Positions 10,088-60,344 of a stretch of DNA of 64,000 nucleotides are shown piece by piece (position 1 is the stretch's first letter; the number at the start of each line of letters is the position of its first letter). The DNA comes from a virus. The notes under the pieces were generated by a model. That model searched no databases. It saw only the letters and a list, made by a program, of their open reading frames with translations, and had not been told where the DNA came from. The stretch lies in IMG/VR virus record IMGVR_UViG_3300049719_000225, positions 1-64,000 of that record; one strand, given 5' to 3'. The position numbers and the translations under genes are program-made.

Positions 10088-11959
10088 TTACTCGTTCCAA
10101 TAGGTGCCGTCCCACGTTAGCTCCTGCGTCGCGCCGTTCGCCAGCGTGAACGAACTAACAAGGGACCCGGACGTGTTGTAAATGATCGAGGAGCCTGCCT
10201 GCACGGTCACGGTCCCGGCGGCCTGGTTCTTAATCTTGCAATGGGCGAACAGGATCGGGGATGCCGGAAGGTTCTGCGTAGTGGGCCCGGACGCCGTGAT
10301 GATGTTGAGCGCGTTGATCGCCAGCGTCCCACCGCTCGTCGAAGTCTTGAGGGTAATCCCAACGCCTGGCGACGTGACTGTGAAAGTCGAAGGCGACGTG
10401 ACCACGAAGAAGGGAGACGAGGTCGTCCCGCCGAGGCCGTTCGGGAGCGAGGAGATGTCCGAGTAAACGTTGTAAGGCCCCGTCCACTCCTCGTCCGGGA
10501 TTCGGCAGTTTGCGAGGTAGACCGTCGCGGTGTCCAGCGCGGTTCCGGCGGTCCCCTTGATGCCGTACTCGTTCGTCACTTGGTTGTGCCACGCGCAGGA
10601 GTAGAATTGCGCGACTGGAGACCGTCCGTGATTCCCGGTCTCCAGGCTGAGGACGTTGAACTCGCAGCCTATGAAGACGTTGAGGTCCATCAGCTCCGTG
10701 ACCCCGAGGTCGTTCATCACGCAGTTTCGGAAGGTCATCTGGCCCCCGTTGCCGCCGCACTGGATCGTCCAATTGTCGAAGAAGGAGTTGTCCGCGAACA
10801 GAAATGGATTGATCACCCTGACGGGTTGGAAGGAGAACGAGTTCTGGATCGTAACGTTGACGAACCCGAAGAACGCGCCGTCGAAATAGAGACCCCCGAT
10901 CCCCTCCCAGATGGGATTGTTGTTCACGTTCGCGATAGATGTCAGGGAGTGGCCGTCCGATCCCTGCCCCATCAGCACCGTGTACGGGGTCATCGCGACC
11001 GTCTCGTTGTAGAATCCCGGCCCGACTTGGATCGCGTAGGAATGGGTCGACGATAGATTCGCCTTGTCCGCGACGATCACCGCGATCGCGGGAGCGATGG
11101 ACGCGAAGGGGTTGATCACGCTCCCGTTCCCCGTCGAGTCGCTCCCCATTCTCTGATCAACGTAGAGTGTGGAACCAATGAACTGCGAACTGCCAGCGGT
11201 CGATATAACGCCGGAGCCATTGACCGTAATCGTTGAGCCATCCGGACGAACGGAACCCAGCGTGCTGTTGGTTGCCACGGGCACTGAAATCACGCCTGAG
11301 CCATTGACCGTGATTGTTGCATTGTCCGGTTTAACAATGCCTTTGGTGGAGCTGGTCGCCGTGGGCACTGATATGGTGCCGGATGAAACCGTAACAGTGC
11401 TCCCATCCGGAATGACGGCTCCGGCAGCCCCCGTAGTGGCAAGCGGCAGGTCCGCCGCTACCAGCAGTCTATACGACGGCGTCCCAGAACCCCCCAAGGT
11501 GGGTCCCGCCCAGATGTAGTTGGCAGACGTGGTGCTCAAAGAGAACGTGAGTGCCGGGGACGTTGTAGGGCTGCCTCCAAGCGCCGTGGTGAACAGACCT
11601 GTGGCGTTGCCAGAAGTGAAGCTAGTCAATCCCCCACCCCCTCCTCCGCTGGGGGCTATCCAGGACCTGGTGCCGTTGGTAAGCGACGACAGCAAGAAGC
11701 CGTTCGTGCCGGGGTTCCCCAGGGCTGGCTCCGGCGTGAAGTCGGTCAGCGCGTTGAAGTCAGAGGCGATCACGTCGTACAGCACCGTACGGACCTGCAA
11801 GGCCGTGATGCCACCGGACTGACCACTGGCTAGTTGACTGGTTACCTCGGCTGCCAAGGCAGCGCGATTCTTAGGCGTCCCCTGCGCCAAGATCGGGGAG
11901 GCGATGAGTGCCGATAGGGCAACACCGACGAGTGCGTTATAGATTTTCTTAGTGTTCAT
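10088..11959 (-). CDS. Beta-helix tail fibre-like protein with Sec signal peptide
   Basis: 623 residues; the start overlaps the upstream stop (ATGA). Residues 1-26 form a classical signal peptide: basic MNTKK, hydrophobic core, SPILA cleavage region. Next comes a fibre-base motif (NRAALAAEVTSQL, GITALQVRTVLYDVIAS). Three repeats of about 25 residues follow (VIPDGSTVTVSSGTISVP, IVKPDNATITVNGSGVISVP, SVRPDGSTITVNGSGVIST). From about residue 265 it becomes a right-handed beta-helix (LYVDQRMGSDSTGNGS, then Asn- and Cys-rich turns). The tip looks like a fibre C-terminus (LTWDGTYWNE). A Sec signal on a fibre is unusual. It may be a decoy or exported adhesin, or the signal may have been acquired by recombination. 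Confidence 0.7.
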   Translation of the reverse strand: MNTKKIYNALVGVALSALIASPILAQGTPKNRAALAAEVTSQLASGQSGGITALQVRTVLYDVIASDFNALTDFTPEPALGNPGTNGFLLSSLTNGTRSWIAPSGGGGGGLTSFTSGNATGLFTTALGGSPTTSPALTFSLSTTSANYIWAGPTLGGSGTPSYRLLVAADLPLATTGAAGAVIPDGSTVTVSSGTISVPTATSSTKGIVKPDNATITVNGSGVISVPVATNSTLGSVRPDGSTITVNGSGVISTAGSSQFIGSTLYVDQRMGSDSTGNGSVINPFASIAPAIAVIVADKANLSSTHSYAIQVGPGFYNETVAMTPYTVLMGQGSDGHSLTSIANVNNNPIWEGIGGLYFDGAFFGFVNVTIQNSFSFQPVRVINPFLFADNSFFDNWTIQCGGNGGQMTFRNCVMNDLGVTELMDLNVFIGCEFNVLSLETGNHGRSPVAQFYSCAWHNQVTNEYGIKGTAGTALDTATVYLANCRIPDEEWTGPYNVYSDISSLPNGLGGTTSSPFFVVTSPSTFTVTSPGVGITLKTSTSGGTLAINALNIITASGPTTQNLPASPILFAHCKIKNQAAGTVTVQAGSSIIYNTSGSLVSSFTLANGATQELTWDGTYWNE

Positions 11960-21752: not shown

Positions 21753-22214
21753 ATGAAAACTCGTATCCTGTCAGCTCTCCTCGGCGTCGTGGCGCTTGCG
21801 TTCACCGCCTGCCAACTCAACCAGGCGGAAGCATCCGCCGTGTACATTGCCGCTGAGACGGGCACTGCGGCCCTCATCGCGAAGAATCCCCAGATAGTGC
21901 CCACGCTCAATCTCCTGGTCGCCGATTGGACGAAGTTCGAGAACGGCACCATCGTCCCGGGCGATGAGGTCGCATTGCTTCAGAGCATCGTCACAGTGAC
22001 CAAGGCCAAGCTGACCACCACGGAGGCTGCGGCCCTCGACGGCGCTGTTCAGCAGGTACTTGCAAACCAGAACTCCACAGCACCCACACCTCTCCAGGGT
22101 GCTGCAGGGGCGATCATCACCACCCTTATCAACGGCGTGGCACGGGCAATCGTCATCTCGACGCCTGTGACACCTGTCGGTCCCGCTCCCACTGCTGCGG
22201 CGGTGACGAAATAA
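21753..22214 (+). CDS. Phage-encoded lipoprotein
   Basis: 153 residues. MKTRILSALLGVVALAFTACQ is a textbook lipoprotein signal: basic start, hydrophobic core, lipobox FTAC with the acylated Cys at residue 20. The mature part is Ala/Thr/Val-rich and helical, with no further motif. It would sit in the host inner or outer membrane. Phage lipoproteins of this size are often superinfection-exclusion factors or o-spanin-like proteins, but no partner is visible. It starts after the A-rich leader CCAAAACACAT. TAGTTAG lies further upstream at 21720. Confidence 0.7.
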   Translation: MKTRILSALLGVVALAFTACQLNQAEASAVYIAAETGTAALIAKNPQIVPTLNLLVADWTKFENGTIVPGDEVALLQSIVTVTKAKLTTTEAAALDGAVQQVLANQNSTAPTPLQGAAGAIITTLINGVARAIVISTPVTPVGPAPTAAAVTK

Positions 22215-22259
22215 CTCCTTACGGGGTAGCCTACCTACCAGGCGTAGGCACAGTTCACG

Positions 22260-22284
22260 AGGCCGTCACATCTTGTGACGGCCT
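22260..22284. terminator. GC-rich perfect hairpin after lipoprotein gene
   Basis: Stem AGGCCGTCACA / TGTGACGGCCT (11 bp) with a 3-base loop, 45 bases after the lipoprotein stop and 17 bases before the lipase start. There is no T tract, so it may be a Rho-assisted or mRNA-stabilising hairpin rather than a strong intrinsic terminator. Confidence 0.55.
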
Positions 22285-22300
22285 TAGCTGTTGTTAGGGG

Positions 22301-23026
22301 ATGAACCTTGCTGATTTCTTCCCCGATGCAGAGTTGATGGCTGACACGTATGGCTTGATCGGTTTGGGCCTGACGCCCTCGCTGTCCTCCGACTTTTTCC
22401 GTCTCCCCGACTACGGGTTCGTGGACTACCTCAATGTGAAGGACGAGGTGCTGTGGTGGGACGACATCGCCTTCATGGGTATTGTGGCAGAAACTCCTGA
22501 GGAAGCCGTAATCGTTTACGTTGGAACACACACCAACCTTCAGTGGATAAAAGACATACAGGCCAGACCACGGTCTTGGACGACACTGGACGGGGTATCC
22601 GGCCAGGTGGAGCACGGATTTTCGGACGTATACGAGGCCACCACGCTCAACAAGTCCGCCATCACCCTGCGTCAGTACATCGGCCAACTGAATCAGAAAA
22701 AGAAGCCTCTGCATGTTATCGGCCACAGTCTGGGAGCTGCTGCGGGGGGCATTGCTGCTGCGGACTCGTTCTCGCCCCGTTTTTCCCTTTTTGCGATGCC
22801 CAAATGGGGCGACGTAGGCCTTTCCCGGCACCTCAACAGCAAGGCAAGACCCGGTTCCTCCGTCATCAGGAACGTGCAGGATGTTGTGCCCATGGCACCA
22901 CCCTTCCCAGTGTATCAGTCTGTCCTGCCCGAACTGTGGTTCAACAGTGATATGCTGGGGATCTCCGGTGGAGATGCAGCTCGTCATTCCATGCAGGACT
23001 GTTACCTCGCGGCTTGCCGTGGGTGA
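22301..23026 (+). CDS. Class 3 lipase-like alpha/beta hydrolase
   Basis: 241 residues. There is a GxSxG nucleophile elbow (VIGHSLGAAAG, Ser143) after an early oxyanion-type strand (VIVYVGTHTNLQWIKDI). Asp194 lies in VIRNVQDVVPMAPPFPVYQ and His229 in ARHSMQDCYL, the order of a Ser-Asp-His triad of Lipase_3 family enzymes. There is no signal peptide. It lies between a phage lipoprotein and a tail fibre and could attack host membrane lipids on entry or exit; the substrate is not known. TTGTTAGGGG precedes the ATG. Confidence 0.8.
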   Translation: MNLADFFPDAELMADTYGLIGLGLTPSLSSDFFRLPDYGFVDYLNVKDEVLWWDDIAFMGIVAETPEEAVIVYVGTHTNLQWIKDIQARPRSWTTLDGVSGQVEHGFSDVYEATTLNKSAITLRQYIGQLNQKKKPLHVIGHSLGAAAGGIAAADSFSPRFSLFAMPKWGDVGLSRHLNSKARPGSSVIRNVQDVVPMAPPFPVYQSVLPELWFNSDMLGISGGDAARHSMQDCYLAACRG

Positions 23027-23038
23027 CAGTTAAGCTGT

Positions 23039-25516
23039 ATGGACATCAGTAGCACCATCGACCTGATCAACGTCTGGCAGGGCGGCACCGGGGCTGTAAC
23101 GGCCCTGCAGGGCTTTAACAACCTGTCGCCGATGACAACACAGGGGGACCTGATTGTCGGGGGCGTCAGCGGCAGTGCTTTGAGGTTCCCGATAGGCCCG
23201 GCTGGCACGGTGCTCAGTTCAAATGGTAGCACTTTGTACTGGGGAACGGGCGGAACGGGCGAGGTAACGGTAACAGGCACACCCTCGGTGGGTCAGCTGG
23301 CCGGTTGGTCTGGGGTGTCTTCCATCCAGGGGATCACGGTGGGAACGGGGCTCACACTGACGGGTACCCTGCTCACAGCCACTGGAACTGGTGGGGTGAC
23401 AAACTTTTCGGCAGGCGCTTTGAGCCCACTGTTTACAACCAGTGTTGCGACGGCCACGAGCACCCCGGCGCTCTCGTTCGCGTTGGTGAGCCAGTCTCAG
23501 AATCTGGTATACGCCAGCCCAGCATCGGGTTCAGGAAACCCCGCATTCAGGTCCTTGGTGGTGGCAGATCTCCCTGGAGGGGCGTGGGCGGTAGCCTCAG
23601 TGACGGGCACGTCCAATCAGATCACAGCATCGCCTACCACGGGTGCGGTGGTCGTGAGCCTGCCGAGCGCAGTGACGATGCCCGGCAGCCTGGCGGTGAC
23701 AACCACGAGCATCTTGCAGGCGGTCACGATCAATGGCGCAGCCACCTTCAACTCGACCCTTACCGTCAGCGGCAGCGGAGCGGTGAACTTGGGCAGCGGG
23801 ACGACGACGGTAGGGGGTCAACTTGCCGTCACCGGAACAGGGTTTTCTTTGGTTACTATTGGAGGCCCGTTTGCAGGTAGAAATGAAACCACGTTCACAA
23901 ATACGAACGCCGTCGGGTATAGTGAAATGAATTGGACGACAGACCAAGGCGCGAGGGTAGCTTTTATTGATGTGAACGGAGGGGCGGCCAGCAACGGTAC
24001 TATACAATTAGGTGCTCTATTGGCTGGTGCCGGAATCCAGTATTACGCCTCCGGTTCGAGTATAGGGTATATGACCTCGACTGGCTTGAACGGCATGGCC
24101 ATCGGCCAAACGACCCCGGCGGCAGGCAGCTTCACGACGCTGAGTGCGACGACCAGCATCACGCTCTCAAACGCGAGCAACCCACTGCTGTCTGTATCGG
24201 ACACAACGGCCACCACGGGTCCGGCTGTGTTCCTGCAAGCCGCCCACACCATCGGATCGGGTGAAGGGCTTGTAGGAACCACGAGCAATCATCCGTTAGG
24301 AGTGTACGTGAGCGCTGTTAAGGTCGCTACGTTTTCCTCCACCGGTCTCTCCGTCATCGGCACCTCGACGCTGACGGGGAACGTGACGTTCGGCGGAAGC
24401 CTTCTTTCTGCTGGTTCTTTGGTGTTAGGCACCAACGGCTCTACAACCGCCCTCACGCTCGACACCTCGCAGAACGCGACGTTTGCGGGGAACGTGGGAA
24501 TCGCAGGCACCCTCTCCGTCACGGGCACCTCGACGCTCAACGGAACCACGACTATTGGAAACGGCACAGCAACAGGCTTGCTATATGTTAATGGCGGGGC
24601 AGTGGGTAGCTACGCCGCATACATCGGTTTTGAGGCTGCGGGTACAAACTATTGGGCAATAGGGCGCGGACCCGCAGACGCATCGGCCAATTTTCAAATC
24701 TACGATTTAGAGGGCACGCCGGGGGTGCGTCTCTCGCTGGCGAGCGGAACCGGAGCTTTCTATATTCAGGGCACCTCGACGCTGACGGGGAATGTGACGG
24801 TGGGATCGGGCAGTGGTAATGCCTTGACGTATATCAACGGTGGGGCGGCCTCCACAACGGCGTTAATTTTCGATCAAGCAGGCACTGAGGTCGGGCGCGT
24901 TTCATTTGGAGCCACGCAAAATATGACCCTCTGCACGGGGGCGAACGTCACTGCCCTCACGCTCGACACGAGCCAGAGCGCCACGTTCGCGGGGAACGTG
25001 GGAATCGCAGGCACCCTCGGAGTCACCGGCACCTCGACGCTCACGGGCAACGTCACGGTGCAATCAACAGCAGGAATTAAATTCACAGGAAATGTTTCCA
25101 TGACAGGGGCCATCAATGCAAACCTCTCAAGTAATGGGCGTGAACTGGCATTAAACTTTTCGAACTCAAGTTCTGGTGCCTCCGCAACGACAGAGTGTTT
25201 ATTTGGAAACAACACACAGGCTCTAATCTTTTTTGTTCTTGGAACAGGCAACTCGACAAACCCTCTCTCTGGGGGCCCGGCAACGGCGGGAGCTACGGGC
25301 ATCTATACTTACGGGAACTCCCCATTCACGCTAGGCACCAATTCAATAGCCGCCCTCACGCTCGACACGAGCCAGGGCGCCAAGTTCGCGGGGCACGTGG
25401 GAATCGGTGCAGTAACGAGCACGAGCCCGCTTCATATATCAGGACTTCCCACCTCCTCATCGGGCCTAGCCACGGGAGATATTTGGAATAACGGCGGCGT
25501 CCTGACGGTTAAATAA
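23039..25516 (+). CDS. Long repetitive tail fibre protein
   Basis: 825 residues. It has an N-terminal fibre-type region (MTTQGDLIVGGVSGSALRFP, GPAGTVLSSNGSTLYWG) and many short beta repeats (TSTLTGNVT, ALTLDTSQ-ATFAGNVGI). It ends in PTSSSGLATGDIWNNGGVLT, a common fibre tip. Repeats occur at the DNA level too (24449-25406). Asn, Thr, Ser and Gly dominate. It probably forms a trimeric fibre that contacts the host surface. CAGTTAAG lies upstream of the start. No chaperone domain is recognised at its end. Confidence 0.8.
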   Translation: MDISSTIDLINVWQGGTGAVTALQGFNNLSPMTTQGDLIVGGVSGSALRFPIGPAGTVLSSNGSTLYWGTGGTGEVTVTGTPSVGQLAGWSGVSSIQGITVGTGLTLTGTLLTATGTGGVTNFSAGALSPLFTTSVATATSTPALSFALVSQSQNLVYASPASGSGNPAFRSLVVADLPGGAWAVASVTGTSNQITASPTTGAVVVSLPSAVTMPGSLAVTTTSILQAVTINGAATFNSTLTVSGSGAVNLGSGTTTVGGQLAVTGTGFSLVTIGGPFAGRNETTFTNTNAVGYSEMNWTTDQGARVAFIDVNGGAASNGTIQLGALLAGAGIQYYASGSSIGYMTSTGLNGMAIGQTTPAAGSFTTLSATTSITLSNASNPLLSVSDTTATTGPAVFLQAAHTIGSGEGLVGTTSNHPLGVYVSAVKVATFSSTGLSVIGTSTLTGNVTFGGSLLSAGSLVLGTNGSTTALTLDTSQNATFAGNVGIAGTLSVTGTSTLNGTTTIGNGTATGLLYVNGGAVGSYAAYIGFEAAGTNYWAIGRGPADASANFQIYDLEGTPGVRLSLASGTGAFYIQGTSTLTGNVTVGSGSGNALTYINGGAASTTALIFDQAGTEVGRVSFGATQNMTLCTGANVTALTLDTSQSATFAGNVGIAGTLGVTGTSTLTGNVTVQSTAGIKFTGNVSMTGAINANLSSNGRELALNFSNSSSGASATTECLFGNNTQALIFFVLGTGNSTNPLSGGPATAGATGIYTYGNSPFTLGTNSIAALTLDTSQGAKFAGHVGIGAVTSTSPLHISGLPTSSSGLATGDIWNNGGVLTVK
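24449..25406. repeat. Three dispersed direct repeats inside the tail-fibre gene
   Basis: Copies start at GCCCTCACGCTCGACAC at 24449-24540, 24953-25044 and 25352-25406 (the last shorter). Each encodes a TLDTSQ...FAGNVGI unit. The intervening DNA differs, so the copies could serve as recombination sites for swapping fibre modules. Confidence 0.8.
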
Positions 25517-26552: not shown

Positions 26553-26718
26553 GGTGGGCGGCGAGGTAGGCCGAGAGATCGCAGTACTTGCAGAATGATA
26601 CTCTGGCTGGTGGCGGCAGTGGCAGCAGTAGGGTGGACGCATCGCATCGGCATTGAAGTACACGTCCTGTCGGCGTGTTCAGAACTTTGCGCCCAAAAGG
26701 AATGTCACGTTCTTCCAT
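26527..26718 (-). CDS. Small CxC...CxxC zinc-finger protein
   Basis: 63 residues from ATG 26718, which overlaps the last codons of the helicase gene (14 bases). It contains CRCD and, 15 residues later, CKYC: a four-Cys zinc-binding arrangement. It lies downstream of the helicase in the same operon; a replication-accessory role is possible but unsupported. Confidence 0.5.
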   Translation of the reverse strand: MEERDIPFGRKVLNTPTGRVLQCRCDASTLLLPLPPPARVSFCKYCDLSAYLAAHPTQQQAST

Positions 26719-29119
26719 CTTGTTCACCCTCTATAAGCCGAATTGGAACCTTTTTGGCGCTCTTTTTTCCTCTGGTTTTTTCTGATGGTGTTGGCGGTGG
26801 TTTCAAGCCCAGAAGTTCGATGCGGTACTTCGAGGGATACACCTTGGCGTCGATGTGCTGAAAGGCGGGACCGTGGCGGTTCAGGAAGACAAATACGCGA
26901 AAGTCGTCGTTTTGTATCTCTTTGTCCGTGGCGCACAGCCCCAGGGCAACGTCCACGATGCCCGCCTTCTCAAATGCTCCCTGGAATGACCCCATATCGG
27001 GTACGTCCTTGTCCACGGTCTCCTTGTTGCAGCGGTCAGGCATCACAACCACGACCCCCAATTCCTGTGCCAGTGCCCGTGCGTCCGTGTAGATGTTGGC
27101 CTGTTGCCTGTAATCCTTTTCCCCATCTCCACGGGTGGTCGGTCTGATCGTCTCAGCATAGTCAATCACGATCATCTTTGGACGTATTCCCATTTGCCGT
27201 ATGGCCATCTTGGCGTGTGCCCGAAGATCATTTATCGTGGTGCTTTTGCTGGAGAAACTCTTGAACAGAAGCTTCCCGGCCACGCCCCTTTTTTCATCCT
27301 GCATAGCATTCCACACCGCATCCTTGTAGTCTCCCGGGCAGTCGTAGGCTATATCCGTATCGATATTGGAGAGGTTGGCCATCGCCCGCATCATCGCCAG
27401 CTCCTGTGAAATTTCACAGGCGTAATAGATGACATCGTACTTCAGGTTAGGTGCCACCATGTTGAGTGCCAAGTTGAGCGCGAAATTGGTGTTGTGAGTG
27501 ACAGTGAAGTCATCTAGGAGAAACCTCTCGTTTCCATCCAAGGTGAACCCGAACCACTCCCCATCCCTAATCGGGGTTAACTTCAATTTGCAGCGGAGGT
27601 CACATTTTTTAGAATCCTTTGCCTGCTTCCTAGGAAGCCTGGTGGGGATACGCGACAACTTTCCTGATATGAACACTTTATGAGTAAGTCCCGCATAACC
27701 GATGCTCTTGATGCTGGTTTTCTCTGTTCGAGCATAGGCCCGCATACCAACACTTCGAGCCAGCCAGAGAACATCCTGGATAAGTCTCGGGTCCGAGTTG
27801 CAGAAGATGAAACCCTTGTTGAAGGCTAGGTAGCCATCACTATCAAGGAGTCCAGCCAACAACTCTAGGCGAGACGCAGTGTCATTGAACTTGTAGAGGG
27901 CCGGTACATGCTTGTTATTGAAAACGTTGAGTTGGCGCAGGGACTCCGTGATGTGGTTTATGCGATTAGTTGCTTTGGGTTTTTTGGCGAACCGCAGGAT
28001 GTCACACCCTCTACCGTGCGTCACCCCAAGCCTGAGTCCTAGTCTATTGGCATAGGAATGAAGATAGTCAGCTATTTCACCATCTTTGAACCCAACTGTA
28101 ACACCGGGTACATCCTTGGTGCCATCTCCCAGCCAGATACCCAAGAAATAGGGTTCTAGGGGCACCTCTTGGTGAGGAAATTCCACGCCCACTTTGTACG
28201 CTTGCCACTCCTTGCCAAAGTTCTTGTGGGACAGTTTTTCGCACAACTCTCTGGCAGGAATCTCCTTAATACGTTTCTCATCCTCCGACATGACGCACAT
28301 TACATGGGCGTCGTTGCATACGAAGTTGTTCCCATTTCTCTGTTCGACGTGGTACAGAGGACCAAACCCATTTCCGCAGGTTAGTACCCGCCTAGGAGTC
28401 CCATCGTCGCCCATCAGCAGGTCTCCTTCTCGTATCGTCTCCGCGAGTTTAGAGGACCCATCATGCAGCATGACGGGAGTGCCCTTTCCGAGGCACTTGT
28501 GACGCTTGGGCGGTGCGAGTGGCACGATGAGCCAGCCCGGCTTCCACCCCATCTTCCAGATGTCATCAAGGACCTTGTAACCAGTGCTTATGCCGTATTG
28601 CTCATTGGTAACCTTGTCTATGACTTTCTCATAGTCCTCGTGCAGCACGAGGCCCAGATCATCCAGATTTGTGCCCACGGAACGGGCCTGGTCGAACATC
28701 GGTCCCCACCCTTCTGGAGGCTCTTTGTTTTCCTTCAGGAGATCGATGGACTTCCGAATGGCTGCGAGAAGCGCCTGCTCCCTTGCGAACTCAACGAGCG
28801 TCTCCGAGACGTGCTCCCAGTCTGAAGTGTCTAACTCCTCCAGTCGCTTGACGTAGGAGGACACGGAGTCGTCCCCCTTCCCCTCTACATCGAGGGATCG
28901 GTTAGCGTCAGAAACGAGCTGTGCCAGGACGGGAAATGTAGGGAACTTCCCCCACTTCTCGTAGTACGCAACGGCCTCCTTCGCAGTGAGGGTTGCCTCC
29001 ACCCCACCGAAGTAGCTTGGCTTCAGACAGGGGATCACCCACCCGAGGTGGTCCGCGTGACGAATCATGCTCGCCAGAGCCAAGTCCTGATAGTCAGTGT
29101 TGAATCTGAAGCCCGCCAC
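26705..29119 (-). CDS. DnaB-type replicative helicase with an intein
   Basis: 804 residues from GTG 29119; a GTG at 29182 would overlap the upstream gene by 61 bases. The extein is about 470 residues: an N-terminal DnaB-like helical domain, then the RecA-type core (ISTGYKVLDDIWKMGWKPGW). The intein at 27491-28495 splits the P-loop region (APPKRHK|T). Walker B is MIVIDYAETIRP, followed by RQQANIYTDARALAQ and MPDRCNKE. The P-loop reads A-P-P-K-R-H-K-T, lacking both glycines of GxxxxGKT, which is odd. After splicing the enzyme would unwind DNA ahead of the phage polymerase and interact with the primase at 1-885. Confidence 0.85.
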   Translation of the reverse strand: MAGFRFNTDYQDLALASMIRHADHLGWVIPCLKPSYFGGVEATLTAKEAVAYYEKWGKFPTFPVLAQLVSDANRSLDVEGKGDDSVSSYVKRLEELDTSDWEHVSETLVEFAREQALLAAIRKSIDLLKENKEPPEGWGPMFDQARSVGTNLDDLGLVLHEDYEKVIDKVTNEQYGISTGYKVLDDIWKMGWKPGWLIVPLAPPKRHKCLGKGTPVMLHDGSSKLAETIREGDLLMGDDGTPRRVLTCGNGFGPLYHVEQRNGNNFVCNDAHVMCVMSEDEKRIKEIPARELCEKLSHKNFGKEWQAYKVGVEFPHQEVPLEPYFLGIWLGDGTKDVPGVTVGFKDGEIADYLHSYANRLGLRLGVTHGRGCDILRFAKKPKATNRINHITESLRQLNVFNNKHVPALYKFNDTASRLELLAGLLDSDGYLAFNKGFIFCNSDPRLIQDVLWLARSVGMRAYARTEKTSIKSIGYAGLTHKVFISGKLSRIPTRLPRKQAKDSKKCDLRCKLKLTPIRDGEWFGFTLDGNERFLLDDFTVTHNTNFALNLALNMVAPNLKYDVIYYACEISQELAMMRAMANLSNIDTDIAYDCPGDYKDAVWNAMQDEKRGVAGKLLFKSFSSKSTTINDLRAHAKMAIRQMGIRPKMIVIDYAETIRPTTRGDGEKDYRQQANIYTDARALAQELGVVVVMPDRCNKETVDKDVPDMGSFQGAFEKAGIVDVALGLCATDKEIQNDDFRVFVFLNRHGPAFQHIDAKVYPSKYRIELLGLKPPPTPSEKTRGKKSAKKVPIRLIEGEQDGRT
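27491..28495 (-). mobile_element. Intein with LAGLIDADG homing endonuclease in helicase
   Basis: 335 residues inserted after Lys of the P-loop. The first residue is Cys (CLGKGTPVML); the end is FLLDDFTVTHN with +1 Thr, the standard Class 1 layout. Block B is VCNDAHVMCV (N-x-x-H rather than T-x-x-H). Two LAGLIDADG helices are visible: FLGIWLGDGTKD and LLAGLLDSDGYL. The DNA is more AT-rich than the extein, in line with separate origin. The endonuclease would home into intein-free helicase genes. Confidence 0.9.
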
Positions 29120-29121
29120 GT

Positions 29122-29997
29122 TCAGATAGAAGCAGACGCCACGGCCCGCCAGAGCTTGCTCGGTTCCGTATACACCGGGCACACTTTGGTGTCTCTGAGA
29201 GACAGGCCTATCTTCATGGCCTGTCGGTGAGCAATTTCCATGGTGAGTGAATTGCGAATCTGAAGGACAACCTGGATGAGGGGACTCACTGAAGCTCGCT
29301 TTACGCGATCGCGGTGGGTTTTTATGGCCCGCAAGTTTTGCAGCATTGTTTTATAGGACGATTCACTGCTGGCGTTCGATAGATCCTCCTCGTCTTCTTC
29401 GGAGAGACGCTCAAAGAGCCCGTGATAGGTGGGCTCCGTGGCAAGCCACCAGGGGTCCAGTGAACTTTCCCTCTGCAGGTACAGGCTGTAGAGGCGCTCC
29501 TTGTCAGACCCCTTCTTGTCCACCTGAAACACGCTGACAGCCCATGCACAGGCCAGTTCCTCACTGTCCCACAGTCTCTTGTGGATGTTGTGCTGGCGGG
29601 GCAACGAAGCCGTATCCGACAGAAGACTCAAGTCGAACTGACCATAGCGGGTGACGCACTCCTCCCGGTACATTTCCAGGTAGCGCATGGCATTGTCTCC
29701 GAGTAACATTCTCGGGTAGAAGGGCCTGTCGATTCCGCCCTTCTGATGGGCGAGGAGGCAGGAGATGATGATTTGACTGGGTTCTACACTACACGCCTGA
29801 GCGTTGGCAGTGAGGGTGTTGGATTCCTCGATGCTGAGTGAGTTCCTGGCTCTCCTCCTGAGGATTGTGCGGTGATAAAGCTGGTACTCGTTATCCGCCA
29901 GGTTCACCCCCTTCACGCCTGGGAAGCAGAGGGGCTGCAGCTTCATCTTCGAGTCCTTGAGAGGTACGAGGCTGGGGTTGGAGACGGGTTCTAACAC
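29122..29997 (-). CDS. Hypothetical replication-region protein
   Basis: 291 residues from GTG 29997 (ATG 29946 is an alternative). Helical and charged, with LLAHQKGGIDRPFYPRMLLG, RLWDSEELACAWAVSVFQVD and an acidic run (LSEEDEEDLSNASSESS). No family recognised. It ends two bases before the helicase start. It is divergent from the DNA polymerase gene with an 11-bp gap, so it is probably part of the replication set. Confidence 0.55.
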   Translation of the reverse strand: MLEPVSNPSLVPLKDSKMKLQPLCFPGVKGVNLADNEYQLYHRTILRRRARNSLSIEESNTLTANAQACSVEPSQIIISCLLAHQKGGIDRPFYPRMLLGDNAMRYLEMYREECVTRYGQFDLSLLSDTASLPRQHNIHKRLWDSEELACAWAVSVFQVDKKGSDKERLYSLYLQRESSLDPWWLATEPTYHGLFERLSEEDEEDLSNASSESSYKTMLQNLRAIKTHRDRVKRASVSPLIQVVLQIRNSLTMEIAHRQAMKIGLSLRDTKVCPVYTEPSKLWRAVASASI

Positions 29998-30008: not shown

Positions 30009-33000
30009 ATGGCTAAAAAATCGAAACAACCACCCAAGCTTTGGCGAGACGTGGCTGCTCACAAGGAAGCCCACCAGGGGAAATTTGTGCCCGACGAGGA
30101 CAACCCCTATTGTCTGAAATGCGGGCTGTGTGCGCTGGGGTCGAAGCGCTTCCTTGGGCCGCAGGGGTCTGATGACCCCTGGGTGACAGTGGTGGTGGAC
30201 GGCGTGGGCTGGAGGGAGGACGACGCAGGGGAGGTGGCCGTAGAGGATAGCGCCAATGGAACGGTGAGGAAAAATCTGGAAGAGATGGCGGAAAGCATCA
30301 ACTTCCCGCTCGACCGTATTCGTTGGCTTCCGATGACTCGCTGTGCCAATCGAAGCAAGACCCAGGTGGATTACAAGGTGAAGGGTAATTGGTGCCGTGC
30401 GTTCGCTGTGGATGACCTGACACAGCACCCACCCAGGCTGGTCCTCGCCATTGGAAGCACGGCTCTGGGACTGCTCAGTCACAAGAGCAACGCCTTCGAC
30501 TGGGCGGGAAAGGTGCTAACCTGGAGAGGCTGGCCCGATGATTGGCTGACAAGCGCCCAATACGATGAGGGTCATCCGGCGCTGCCCCGGCCGCCCGTGA
30601 CTGAAATACCCCTCTATGCAACGCAGTCCTCTCGAATCATCTTTGCATTGCAGAACTCCCGTGAGACGGCCAGGTGGAAGGGTCAGTTGAAGGAGGCTCT
30701 GGAGTACGCCGCTGAGGGAGCTGAAATACCAGACTACGATAGGCCCTATTTCAGTTTTCTGGAGGATCCGGACGCAGTGATCGAGGCACTCAAGGCAATA
30801 CCGGACGACGCTCTTGTCACGTACGACTCGGAAACAAAGGGTCTGCTTCAGTGGGCGCAAAATGCCGCCATCGTTGCCATGATGTTTCGTTACGACGGGC
30901 CAGACGGGCCGGTCTGTTTCGGGTTTCCCTGGGACTTTGAGGAGAGCGCCCTGAAAAGTCACCTGCCCAGGATTATTCCTGTGCTGTTGGACACCTTCTA
31001 TCGTGTTCGATTGCAGGGCCACAATCTGACGTTCGACATCCTGTACGCTTACGCCACGCTGCCTGGGGCTGACCTGAGAAGGCTGACAGACGCCATGGGG
31101 TTCGACACCCGCCATCTCATTTACACGCTGCACCAGACCAAGGAAAGTCTAGGGTTGGAACTGGTAGCCTACCGTTGGTGCCCGGAAATGTCGGGGTACG
31201 AGGAGGAGTTCACACTCATCAAGGATCACACGGGTCTGAGTGACTACCTTGATCCTGGGATGGAAGCGGGCGGCCACTATTCGCGGGCACTTCTCCTGGG
31301 TGACGACGTGCGGAAGGCGTACATCACCTACATCATGGGAGACGTGGAGGTTTGCCACGTCTCGGGTGACGCAATACGGGAGAAGCTCGACAATGCACGC
31401 ATCTACCCGTTCCCGATAGCTGACCCCAACCGTCTCGGCGAGTTCAGGATGTTCTCCCCGCCTCCCCGTCGGTTCGTGTACGACAAGATCATGCTGCCGT
31501 CCAACCGCATGCTCACCCGTCTTATGGGCAGGGGCATGCACGTTGATGTGGCCGAGCTGGCGCACCAGGAAAACATCTTCCCCAAGATGATCAAGGCTGC
31601 TCGGGCTCAGTTGAGGAAAATGGACGACCGTGTGGCTCAGTGGTGTGAGGAACAGGAGGCCACTGTGGTGCTCAAGAATGGGCAACCATGGATCCTGGAT
31701 TTGGAAAGCCGAGAGCAGCTGAAGCACATCCTCTTCAATGTCATGGCGCTTCCTGTGAAGCGGCTCACAAAGACCGGCCTCAAGAAATACAAGGACACGG
31801 AACTGGCCGACATGACCGTGGAGGAACGTCTGGAGTACGCCGCCGTGGACAAGTACACCATCAACGCCCTGGCCGCTGAACACAAGGGACTGGTGGCACC
31901 CCTGCAGGAGTACAGGAAGCTCTACAAGGCCTACACGGCGTTCGTGCGCAGCATGCGCAACATTACCACGGAGGGTGTGGACAAACACGACCGGAAGCAG
32001 CCGCCCTACCTGCAGTCGGATGGGCGTGTGCACGCGAGCTTTAATCTTTGCGGAACTCGTTCTGGTAGATTGGGTTGCAGCCGACCAAACCTAGCCCAGC
32101 TTCCCTCATCTCAGAAGGTGATTGTTAAGCGAATCTACAATTCCCGGTACGGGGATGAAGGTTGCATCTATCAGGGTGACCTTTCTCAGATTGAGCTACG
32201 TCTGCTGGCCGCTGCCTCGGGAGACCCCCTCATGGTGGACGCCTACCGTAGAAACATCGACCTCCACTCACTCACTGCCAGCCATATTTTCGAGATCCCG
32301 TACGAGCATCTGCACAAGGATTACTTCGCGTGGCTTCAGAAAAATGGTCGGGAAAAGGAGGCCAAGGAACTGGAGCGGAAGCGTTCCATTGCGAAGTGCG
32401 TTGATCCATTAACGTTAGTGTCTGTTGATGGAAAAATTATACGGATAGGTTCCATTCACCCCGGCAGAGACATCGACAAGTACTACCCTATCACAGGTAA
32501 AGTCGTTCAAGTTGGTCCTCATGGTGGGAGCGGAGAAATACGACATTTCTACTCTGGAGGTGTTAAAAAGAAAGTGTTAATCTGTGCCAGAAAGGGGCTC
32601 CTTGCCTGCACCCCAAACCATAAATTTCTTCTTCATGACGGTACTCAAGTGGAGGCTGCTGATCTCAAGAAGGGTATGCAGTTGGCTGATGTTGTGCCCT
32701 TAAATCACGCTTGTGACGAGGGGAAAACGATAAGCTTACCAATAAATATATTCGGCAAGGGGATGAACAATGAAAACCTAAATTACTCCTGCCGTGTAGA
32801 CGGCGATATGAGTTACCTTCTAGGTGTCTTGTACGGGGATGGAAACGTGAACGAGAATTATTCAGCCATTTCAACAGGAGGTGATGAGAGATTTTTTAAG
32901 TGGCAGGATATAATAGCTGAGTGTGCAACTAAGTTAGGAATAGACGCTAAGATAATACGAACAGAGTTTAGCGGCACTAAAGTTTCGGAGAAGTTGGGGC

Positions 33001-34238
33001 CAATTACGGGTTCCTATGGGAAAGTGGTTTTGGGGAGCAGGCGGGTATTAGACCTTTTTGAACAACTTGGGGCAGTTGAACGCACTGAGAACAAACTGAG
33101 TAAAACACTCAAAATACCTGTTTGGCTGCTCAACGCCCCAAAGCACCTCAAATTGTCTTTTTTTGCGGGCCTGATAGATACGGACGGCTGCGTTAAGACT
33201 TCAGATGCTTCAATATCATTCTGCACAAAGTCTTGGAGATTGGCTCAGGATGTGATCGTTATGCTTAGATCAGTGGGCATTGAATCAACTCTGTACCCGT
33301 CCTGGAACTCTACTTACGAGAAGTATTACTTTGTAGTGAATGTGCCTGTAAGCTACGCTTGCCAGCTTCGAGGTTATTTACGTCACCCGGATAAAGCGTC
33401 GAAGCTGAGGGAACCAAAATGCACTTCAGGTCGAGTCAAAACAGAAAATTTAGTAACAGCCACCCTGGAAATTCCAGACGGAGAGGTAGTTGACATATCG
33501 CTAGACGACCCACATCTATATGTTCCAGAAGGACTTACCACCCACCAGACCACGAACTTCCTCACGGGATACGGTGGCGGGGCGTTCGGTCTGCAGACAA
33601 CGTTGGCCGAGGAACAGGTGTATCTCGACCAGGAGGAGTGTGAAAACATCATCGATGCGATGTTCGACACCTACCCCGTGTTGAGGAAGTACATCGGTAT
33701 CTACAAGCAGTTCATCCTGGAGCACGGGTGCGCTGTGAGTATCTTCGGACGTGTGCGTCCGTTGCCAGAGGTGGAATCCGAGGACCAGCAACTTGTGAAT
33801 AAGGCCCTGCGTGCGGGGTTCAACCACCTCATTCAGTCCACGGCCTCGGACATGATGTTACTAGCCATGGACGTGATCGACAGGACGCTTTTCGATGAGG
33901 GTCTCGAAAGCTGCCTCGTCAGCACCGTCCACGACAGCTTGGTCATCGACGCTCGCATCAGCGAACTGCCCAAGGTCCATGACATTGTGGACTGCGTGAT
34001 CAACAACCTCCCCGACATTCTGGACTCCCTGTTAGGCCCGGATTACAACAGCGACTGGTGCCGCGTGCTGCCCCTGACAGGTGACTGCGAGGTGGGACGC
34101 AACTACCACGACCAGTCGAAGATGGACAGCTTCAAGGACTCTTCGGGGGTTGTGGACTGGGAGAAGGCGCGCGAGTTCCTGCACGCCACTCCTGCTGCAT
34201 CCGACCAGTCCACTCCAGACGCCGATCTATCTCACTAG
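30009..34238 (+). CDS. Family A DNA polymerase with UDG-like N-terminus and intein
   Basis: 1409 residues (1025 after splicing); GGAG lies nine bases before the ATG. Residues 30-200: uracil-DNA-glycosylase-like module with Cys-rich start (YCLKCGLCALGSKRFLG) and LVLAIGSTALGLL, as in some phage polymerases. Residues 268-460: 3'-5' exonuclease with YDSETKG, GHNLTFDI and YIMGDVEVC. Polymerase motif A is QGDLSQIELR (D724), motif B is RSIAK|TTNFLTGYG split by the intein (K, F and Y conserved), motif C is VHDSLV (His1308, Asp1309, Ser1310 instead of Glu). It replicates the phage genome. Confidence 0.93.
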   Translation: MAKKSKQPPKLWRDVAAHKEAHQGKFVPDEDNPYCLKCGLCALGSKRFLGPQGSDDPWVTVVVDGVGWREDDAGEVAVEDSANGTVRKNLEEMAESINFPLDRIRWLPMTRCANRSKTQVDYKVKGNWCRAFAVDDLTQHPPRLVLAIGSTALGLLSHKSNAFDWAGKVLTWRGWPDDWLTSAQYDEGHPALPRPPVTEIPLYATQSSRIIFALQNSRETARWKGQLKEALEYAAEGAEIPDYDRPYFSFLEDPDAVIEALKAIPDDALVTYDSETKGLLQWAQNAAIVAMMFRYDGPDGPVCFGFPWDFEESALKSHLPRIIPVLLDTFYRVRLQGHNLTFDILYAYATLPGADLRRLTDAMGFDTRHLIYTLHQTKESLGLELVAYRWCPEMSGYEEEFTLIKDHTGLSDYLDPGMEAGGHYSRALLLGDDVRKAYITYIMGDVEVCHVSGDAIREKLDNARIYPFPIADPNRLGEFRMFSPPPRRFVYDKIMLPSNRMLTRLMGRGMHVDVAELAHQENIFPKMIKAARAQLRKMDDRVAQWCEEQEATVVLKNGQPWILDLESREQLKHILFNVMALPVKRLTKTGLKKYKDTELADMTVEERLEYAAVDKYTINALAAEHKGLVAPLQEYRKLYKAYTAFVRSMRNITTEGVDKHDRKQPPYLQSDGRVHASFNLCGTRSGRLGCSRPNLAQLPSSQKVIVKRIYNSRYGDEGCIYQGDLSQIELRLLAAASGDPLMVDAYRRNIDLHSLTASHIFEIPYEHLHKDYFAWLQKNGREKEAKELERKRSIAKCVDPLTLVSVDGKIIRIGSIHPGRDIDKYYPITGKVVQVGPHGGSGEIRHFYSGGVKKKVLICARKGLLACTPNHKFLLHDGTQVEAADLKKGMQLADVVPLNHACDEGKTISLPINIFGKGMNNENLNYSCRVDGDMSYLLGVLYGDGNVNENYSAISTGGDERFFKWQDIIAECATKLGIDAKIIRTEFSGTKVSEKLGPITGSYGKVVLGSRRVLDLFEQLGAVERTENKLSKTLKIPVWLLNAPKHLKLSFFAGLIDTDGCVKTSDASISFCTKSWRLAQDVIVMLRSVGIESTLYPSWNSTYEKYYFVVNVPVSYACQLRGYLRHPDKASKLREPKCTSGRVKTENLVTATLEIPDGEVVDISLDDPHLYVPEGLTTHQTTNFLTGYGGGAFGLQTTLAEEQVYLDQEECENIIDAMFDTYPVLRKYIGIYKQFILEHGCAVSIFGRVRPLPEVESEDQQLVNKALRAGFNHLIQSTASDMMLLAMDVIDRTLFDEGLESCLVSTVHDSLVIDARISELPKVHDIVDCVINNLPDILDSLLGPDYNSDWCRVLPLTGDCEVGRNYHDQSKMDSFKDSSGVVDWEKAREFLHATPAASDQSTPDADLSH
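32397..33548 (+). mobile_element. Intein in DNA polymerase motif B, C-terminal Gln
   Basis: 384 residues between Lys796 and a +1 Thr. The first residue is Cys (CVDPLTLVSVDG). Block B is LLACTPNHKFLL. The endonuclease motifs are YLLGVLYGDGNVNE and FFAGLIDTDGCV. The last residues are LYVPEGLTTHQ, so the C-terminal residue is Gln, not the usual Asn. Gln-ending inteins are known but uncommon. The intein DNA is visibly AT-rich beside the GC-rich extein, a sign of recent acquisition. Confidence 0.9.
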
Positions 34239-59876: not shown

Positions 59877-60344
59877 ATGCCTCCCTCAGCCAAACTCCAA
59901 TGGTTCCAGTCGCAGGGTCTTCAGAAGCACAACGAGTCCGAAATTTGTGGCTTCTTCGAGGACTACAGGTGGCTGTCCAATTTCCACATCTGTACTGTCA
60001 GCTATGAAGGCCTGAGCTATCCGTCGTCCGAGAATGCCTACCAGGCTGCCAAATATCCACCTGAAGAGCGCCCCCAGTTTACGGTGTGCACGCCGTCAGT
60101 TTCCAAGAAATTGGGCAGATTGGCCGCCATCAATCCCGCTGCCTCAAAGGAGGAGGTGATGCTGGACTGCCTGAGGGACAAGTTCACCAACCCCGACCTG
60201 AGGCAGAAGCTGCTCGACACGGGCGAACGCCATCTGGAGGAGACCAACTGGTGGGGCGACACCTTCTGGGGTGTGTGCGACGGCGTGGGCAAGAACATGT
60301 TGGGCAAGCTCCTGATGCTGGTGAGGGACGAGTTGCGCCCCTAG
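59877..60344 (+). CDS. NADAR / YbiA-like protein
   Basis: 155 residues with the NADAR layout: FFEDYRWLSNF near the start, YPSSENAYQAAKYP, then DCLRDKFTNPDLRQKLLDTG, HLEETNWWGDTFWGVCDGVG, GKNMLGKLLMLVRDEL. NADAR proteins act on N-glycosidic bonds linked to ADP-ribose metabolism; some members remove ADP-ribose from nucleic acid. Here it may counter host ADP-ribosylating or NAD-depleting defence, or act with the ADP-ribosyltransferase-like protein at 5037-5972. The stop is the TAG of TAGTTAGGGG before the next gene. Confidence 0.85.
   Translation: MPPSAKLQWFQSQGLQKHNESEICGFFEDYRWLSNFHICTVSYEGLSYPSSENAYQAAKYPPEERPQFTVCTPSVSKKLGRLAAINPAASKEEVMLDCLRDKFTNPDLRQKLLDTGERHLEETNWWGDTFWGVCDGVGKNMLGKLLMLVRDELRP

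Follow-up and report, generated by a model that had tools for sequence, protein, structure and literature searches.

A lipoprotein gene next to a class 3 lipase gene in a tailed phage suggests a little-noticed way to break the bacterial outer membrane

A class 3 lipase gene in a contractile-tailed phage

The window analyzed here, a stretch of 64,000 nucleotides, is part of a 98,115-base IMG/VR virus record, and matches to tail sheath, baseplate and tape-measure proteins indicate that the phage is contractile-tailed. On one strand, a lipoprotein gene, a GC-rich hairpin, a lipase gene and a gene for a repetitive, tail-fibre-like protein follow one another (Table 1). The lipase ORF begins with ATG and encodes 241 amino acids. 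It matches Pfam Lipase_3 (PF01764) with an E value of 9.2e-13 and 48.7 bits against a cut-off of 22, and PHROG 21992, annotated 'esterase/lipase', at 2.4e-6; in the PDB, fungal lipases were found by sequence and phospholipase A1 by profile. Because the score exceeds the cut-off and the GxSxG motif, the Asp, the His, the oxyanion Thr and a class 3 fold are all present, we assign the product to Lipase_3, which bears out the class named in the original prediction. An ORF of 250 amino acids runs antisense at 22235-22987; it has no Pfam match, and we therefore take the sense frame to be the real gene.

Table 1. Positions of genes, residues and other features in the window and, where a locus label is given, in related contigs
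Feature	Position	Strand	Basis
Lipoprotein, 153 aa, lipobox FTAC, cysteine 20, immediately upstream of lipase	21753..22214	+	Lipobox scan
GC-rich hairpin between lipoprotein and lipase, 12 pairs, weak T tail	22259..22285	+	Terminator scan
Class 3 lipase gene, single domain, no signal peptide	22301..23026	+	Pfam, PDB, AF2, Foldseek
Thr76 codon, oxyanion-hole position of GT(H/N) motif	22526..22528	+	Conservation in relatives
Helix 81-87, putatively at the fungal-lipase lid position	22541..22561	+	AF2 helix H81-87, alignment to fungal lipases
Ser143 codon, nucleophile in GHSLG	22727..22729	+	67/67 phage lipases
Asp194 codon, catalytic acid	22880..22882	+	67/67 phage lipases
His229 codon, catalytic base	22985..22987	+	67/67 phage lipases
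Repetitive tail-fibre-like protein, 825 aa, 12 bases after lipase	23039..25516	+	Repeats, translation
Large signal-peptide-like protein, window	10088-11959	-	
Large signal-peptide-like proteins, L001	317-2050, 4044-6416		
Large signal-peptide-like protein, L008	8043-11441		
Large signal-peptide-like protein, L205	3299-5254		

The Ser143-Asp194-His229 triad had been predicted to be intact and the protein to lack a signal peptide. All three residues were found at these positions, and none of the 67 phage lipases departs from the Ser-Asp-His triad; a signal-peptide-like hydrophobic N terminus is absent from the window lipase and, equally, from all 67. Across 31 aligned phage and cellular relatives Ser143 and Asp194 are invariant and position 76 is Thr or Ser, with Thr in 66 of the phage lipases and Ser in 1.

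AlphaFold2 (AF2) run with 2 sequences only gave an unusable model (pLDDT 42), and with the 31-sequence alignment a model with a pLDDT of 81.6 and a pTM of 0.83. A Foldseek search with the latter retrieved plant phospholipase A1 and fungal lipases with E values of about 1e-11 to 1e-7, the TM score against phospholipase A1 being 0.6-0.67 by query; the model also resembles class 3 lipases encoded by giant viruses and a few uncultured tailed phages. The window lipase thus shares with class 3 lipases (PF01764; PDB 7x0c, 7x0d, 2yij, 3tgl) the fold, the GHSLG motif, the Asp and His, the GT motif and a helix at the lid position, for which the pLDDT is about 70. It differs from the fungal and plant class 3 lipases and from phospholipase A1 in being shorter, in carrying VEHGF instead of VHxGF and in having no signal peptide, and its identity to the aligned cellular class 3 relatives is at most 25%. 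The gene product is a putative lipid esterase, probably of the phospholipase A1 or the acylglycerol type.

Neighbourhood of the lipase gene

Of the 98 genes called on the 98-kb contig, solely the lipoprotein gene that precedes the lipase gave a lipobox match. The 86-nt spacer between the two genes folds at z -4.6 and has no Rfam match; its hairpin, one of two strong intergenic hairpins within the window, is a candidate terminator or attenuator. The large protein encoded after the lipase has no match in Pfam or among the PHROGs, and its label as a tail fibre rests on repeats and composition; its gene is probably co-transcribed with that of the lipase. The predicted position of the lipase between a lipoprotein and a tail fibre was thereby confirmed, the upstream flank by its lipobox and the downstream flank by its repeats and composition.

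Among the genes scanned near the pair with Pfam and PHROGs, no endolysin, holin or spanin was recognized, and in a search of the + strand from 21 to 27 kb for an inner-membrane spanin partner, the lipoprotein itself was the sole strongly hydrophobic ORF. No integrase was found among the genes examined of this phage. PADLOC matched neither the lipase nor the lipoprotein, and a defence role of either was set aside for this reason.

Further features were observed in this and related contigs. Large proteins, several of them with tail or fibre matches, have signal-peptide-like starts in three lipase-bearing phages (Table 1), which is unusual for virion proteins. Homing-endonuclease insertions of the LAGLIDADG type (intein-like) lie in a DnaB-like helicase and a family A DNA polymerase (26705-29182, - strand; 30009-34238, + strand), and a 155-aa protein encoded at 59877-60344 (+) is NADAR-domain-like by eye. 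Beyond the window, at 64001-98115 of the contig (L003 and L004), 34 predicted tRNA genes are scattered among HNH-like ORFs, of which tRNAs the window has none; the same part encodes a TROVE/Ro60-type RNA-binding protein (L003:7010-8434) with 45% identity to versions in crAss-like phages.

The closest lipase relative

The sole close relative found in IMG/VR is a lipase at L001, on the 70-kb virus contig G001, with 51% identity over the full length and the same triad. At the sequence level, comparison of the two genes shows purifying selection on that of the window: pN is 0.33 and pS 0.76, the latter saturated, and variation is greatest at third codon positions. The L001 lipase gene and a gene for a 63-aa lipoprotein overlap by 4 bases, and two membrane-protein genes come after the lipase. 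At E values below 0.1, the window phage and G001 share one further gene, for an FkbM-type methyltransferase; since they otherwise have just this gene in common, the lipase gene has probably moved between unrelated phages. In a tree, the window and L001 lipases form a fully supported pair on a long branch, set against class 3 lipases of Verrucomicrobiota and Planctomycetota.

Other searches for members of this lineage gave little. In named phages, tblastn with the window lipase found no homologues, nor did the L001 lipase as query, even at E 10; a peptide-pattern search of genome contigs for the window lipase was negative, and the window DnaB as a probe brought up no related phage contigs. The G001 portal gene retrieved 22 fragments, none with a lipase, the fragments being too short to count. 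A lipase profile found one distant lipase in each of the Verrucomicrobiota and Planctomycetota samples and none in the group to which the Chloroflexi-named genome G032 belongs. A possible link of the host to Verrucomicrobia, hinted at by a PEP-CTERM-like protein of the relative, lacked NCBIfam support; the protein concerned (L007:12317-12865) is secreted, with a PEP-CTERM-like C terminus and no NCBIfam match. The relative also carries a papain-family (C1) peptidase gene (L001:8159-8899), 1.1 kb upstream of its lipase.

Lipoprotein-lipase pairs in other phages

A search that started from a bacterial class 3 lipase found a few named phages, and gp42 of Burkholderia phage BgManors32 led to more, amounting to a handful of 50,697 records. 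An IMG/VR scan with the lipases of BgManors32 and of Shewanella phage vB_Sb_QDWS (QDWS) yielded 63 contigs. The original statement that lipases are rare in phages thus holds for the named phages and fails for virome and prophage contigs, where one subfamily alone accounts for these 63.

A lipobox scan of four phages (those of the window and of L001, vB_Sb_QDWS and BgManors32) gave a single match in each gene set (1/98, 1/104, 1/69 and 1/64), and in every case this was the gene directly before the lipase. The chance of such adjacency is about 1e-6 when the window and L001 phages are counted as one lineage, with base rates that are approximate, as the genes of the two IMG/VR phages were predicted by a simple gene caller and those of QDWS and BgManors32 were taken from the record annotation (64 of 87 genes for the latter). 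In about 60 of the 63 contigs with QDWS-type lipases, the lipase gene comes straight after a lipoprotein gene, mostly with an overlap of 1-4 bases: a script identified 58, including two in which the genes lie 128 and 247 bases apart, and L266 and L273 were recognized on inspection. In L244 the lipoprotein sits one gene further up, and in L262 and L263 a tail-type gene takes its place. These contigs hold 46 distinct lipases at 90% and 32 distinct directly adjacent lipoproteins at 80%.

The place of the pair also recurs. In BgManors32, tail genes are followed by genes for a membrane protein, a GH19 endolysin, an HNH protein, a second membrane protein, the lipoprotein and the lipase; QDWS has a similar late-gene end, in which the order varies, and in both phages the lipase is the last late gene and overlaps the lipoprotein gene by 4 bases. 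Relatives of the GH19 endolysin are encoded within 4 kb upstream in 21 of the 63 contigs and a small membrane protein in 36. In contig L271, genes that we call holin-like, endolysin-like, Rz-like and Rz1-like from topology and inspection only precede the lipase. A different context was found in cyanophages Cr-LKS4 and CrV-01T, where the class 3 lipase adjoins a dCTP deaminase.

The pair of the window resembles those formed by QDWS gp14, with gp15 as its lipoprotein, and by BgManors32 gp42 (PHROG 21992) in that a Lipase_3 protein without a signal peptide is encoded directly after a lipoprotein gene on the same strand. It differs from them in its distant lipase sequence, an N-terminal extension and a lipoprotein for which homology to those of the other phages, BgManors32 and QDWS among them, went undetected, a profile of the 32 lipoproteins scoring it no better than shuffles. 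The arrangement differs as well, the window having an 86-nt gap with a hairpin where the genes overlap in QDWS and BgManors32, and by 4 bases in L001. Two side observations concern the QDWS group. Its lipoproteins (L212-L274) have two common cysteines in the mature part, one in CxxV[NQ] and one later, which possibly form a disulphide. The records OP650936.1 (Hujiaoplasma phage zrk29-1) and OK094664.1 (QDWS) are both 47,902 long and encode an identical lipase, so that one host label may be wrong.

Possible functions of the pair

Action on the outer membrane during lysis is favoured because the recurrent partner of the phage lipases is a lipoprotein and their recurrent place is the late-gene end beside lysis genes. 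Our best explanation, held with not quite even confidence, is that the pair of the window helps to break the outer membrane at lysis. With no export signal, the lipase, like many endolysins, would remain cytoplasmic up to the permeabilization of the inner membrane; the exported, envelope-anchored lipoprotein could serve to place, activate or restrain it. After the peptidoglycan has been cut, the lipase would hydrolyze envelope lipids and remove the last barrier, doing in a Gram-negative host what LysB does in mycobacteria, either instead of spanins or alongside them. We infer the Gram-negative host as well as the activity, substrate and timing of the lipase and the interaction of the two proteins. 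In L271 the lipase would not be a simple spanin substitute, because spanin-like genes are also present there.

The window lipoprotein is probably part of the lipase system, and the pair would then work like those of the relatives. This is an extrapolation, because the lipoprotein is not detectably homologous to those of the QDWS family, the two genes do not overlap and are parted by a terminator-like hairpin, no endolysin, holin or spanin was recognized nearby, and a tail-fibre-like gene comes after; the same points, together with the cyanophage lipases beside dCTP deaminase, speak against the lysis role. Of the two roles originally proposed, that of a lysis aid gains from the late-gene and lysis-gene neighbourhood of the relatives, and that of a virion part keeps some plausibility from the tail-fibre-like gene 12 bases away.

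The main rival, which we consider unlikely, is that the lipase is a virion-associated entry enzyme near the tail fibre, which during adsorption opens lipids of the outer membrane or surface material rich in lipid. It owes its rank to the short distance to the tail-fibre-like gene and to the fact that neither an endolysin nor a holin was recognized nearby. The hairpin parts the lipase from the lipoprotein, so that lipase and fibre may be one transcription unit, and fibre genes lie near the L001 lipase too. There are parallels in the GDSL lipase of Peru-2, which is encoded beside the tailspike and abundant in purified virions (PMC13320782), and in Cellulophaga phage lipases predicted to be virion-associated (PMC5380687). 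However, the window lipase is a single catalytic domain with no recognized fibre- or carbohydrate-binding module, and the constant neighbour in relatives is the lipoprotein rather than a fibre; proximity is weak evidence in any case, since fibre and lysis genes adjoin in many phages.

It is quite improbable that the two genes form a lipase-immunity or lysogenic-conversion pair, in which, inside the envelope, the lipoprotein would inhibit the lipase and the two together would protect the lysogen, exclude superinfecting phage or harm competitors. T6SS lipase effectors come paired with envelope immunity proteins, the two-gene layout with overlapping genes would fit, and the QDWS pair adjoins an integrase at the late-gene end, a usual place of morons; yet none of the 67 phage lipases has an export signal, PADLOC gave no match and the genes examined of the window's phage include no integrase. 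A lipase released by lysis and acting outside the cell, on membrane debris, decoy vesicles or a lipid-containing matrix, appears very improbable: it would have a precedent in PghP of phage PhiNIT1, which a passage in PMC12173070 cites as freed on lysis and clearing extracellular polymer, but would leave the conserved adjacent lipoprotein unexplained. We give least credence to a cytoplasmic metabolic or takeover enzyme that acts on host lipids during infection and has no part in lysis or entry. The missing export signal and the dCTP deaminase beside the cyanophage enzymes are consistent with such a role, but most relatives lie in a late-gene and lysis-gene neighbourhood.

Relation to known lysis and lipase systems

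The breach of the outer membrane by phages of Gram-negative hosts is understood mainly through spanins, which act non-enzymatically. Because dozens of phage lipases directly follow a lipoprotein gene, often beside lysis genes, our data suggest a little-noticed phage way to break this membrane. If true, the conserved pair at the late-gene end would represent an enzymatic outer-membrane route that could be tested in cultured phages. It would also supply enzymes active on the outer membrane and offer a testable function both for a PHROG annotated just 'esterase/lipase' and for many phage lipoproteins that lack a name. In its broadest form the proposal is tentative and rather doubtful: in many phages of Gram-negative hosts the pair would break the outer membrane enzymatically at lysis, as a non-mycobacterial counterpart of LysB that can work beside spanins or replace them, with the window phage and its relative as a second, independently derived lineage.

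What such pairs have in common with the Rz/Rz1 spanins is a lipoprotein of the outer membrane whose gene lies where the lysis genes end; the spanins, however, are non-enzymes, and no Rz-like partner was seen beside the window lipoprotein. We know of no lipoprotein partner of LysB. LysB is a lipid esterase proposed as a third lysis function that acts on the outer envelope layer (PMC5707550, PMC6116005), and the window lipase would likewise be a lipid esterase, but LysB is a mycolylarabinogalactan esterase whereas the window protein points to Lipase_3 in both Pfam and the PDB. Lipases as such are already known from phages, including LysB (PMC5707550), GDSL types (PMC12173070, PMC13320782) and the predicted Cellulophaga enzymes (PMC5380687), and a few phages have an annotated class 3 lipase; in the open-access literature we found no description of a phage lipoprotein-lipase pair. 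The lysis cassette of a Pseudomonas phage (Psa siphovirus) has a GDSL lipase gene upstream of its holin and endolysin genes (PMC12173070). Such GDSL lipases, including that of Peru-2 (PMC13320782), are thus encoded beside lysis or tailspike genes as the lipases described here are, but belong to an annotated class separate from Lipase_3.
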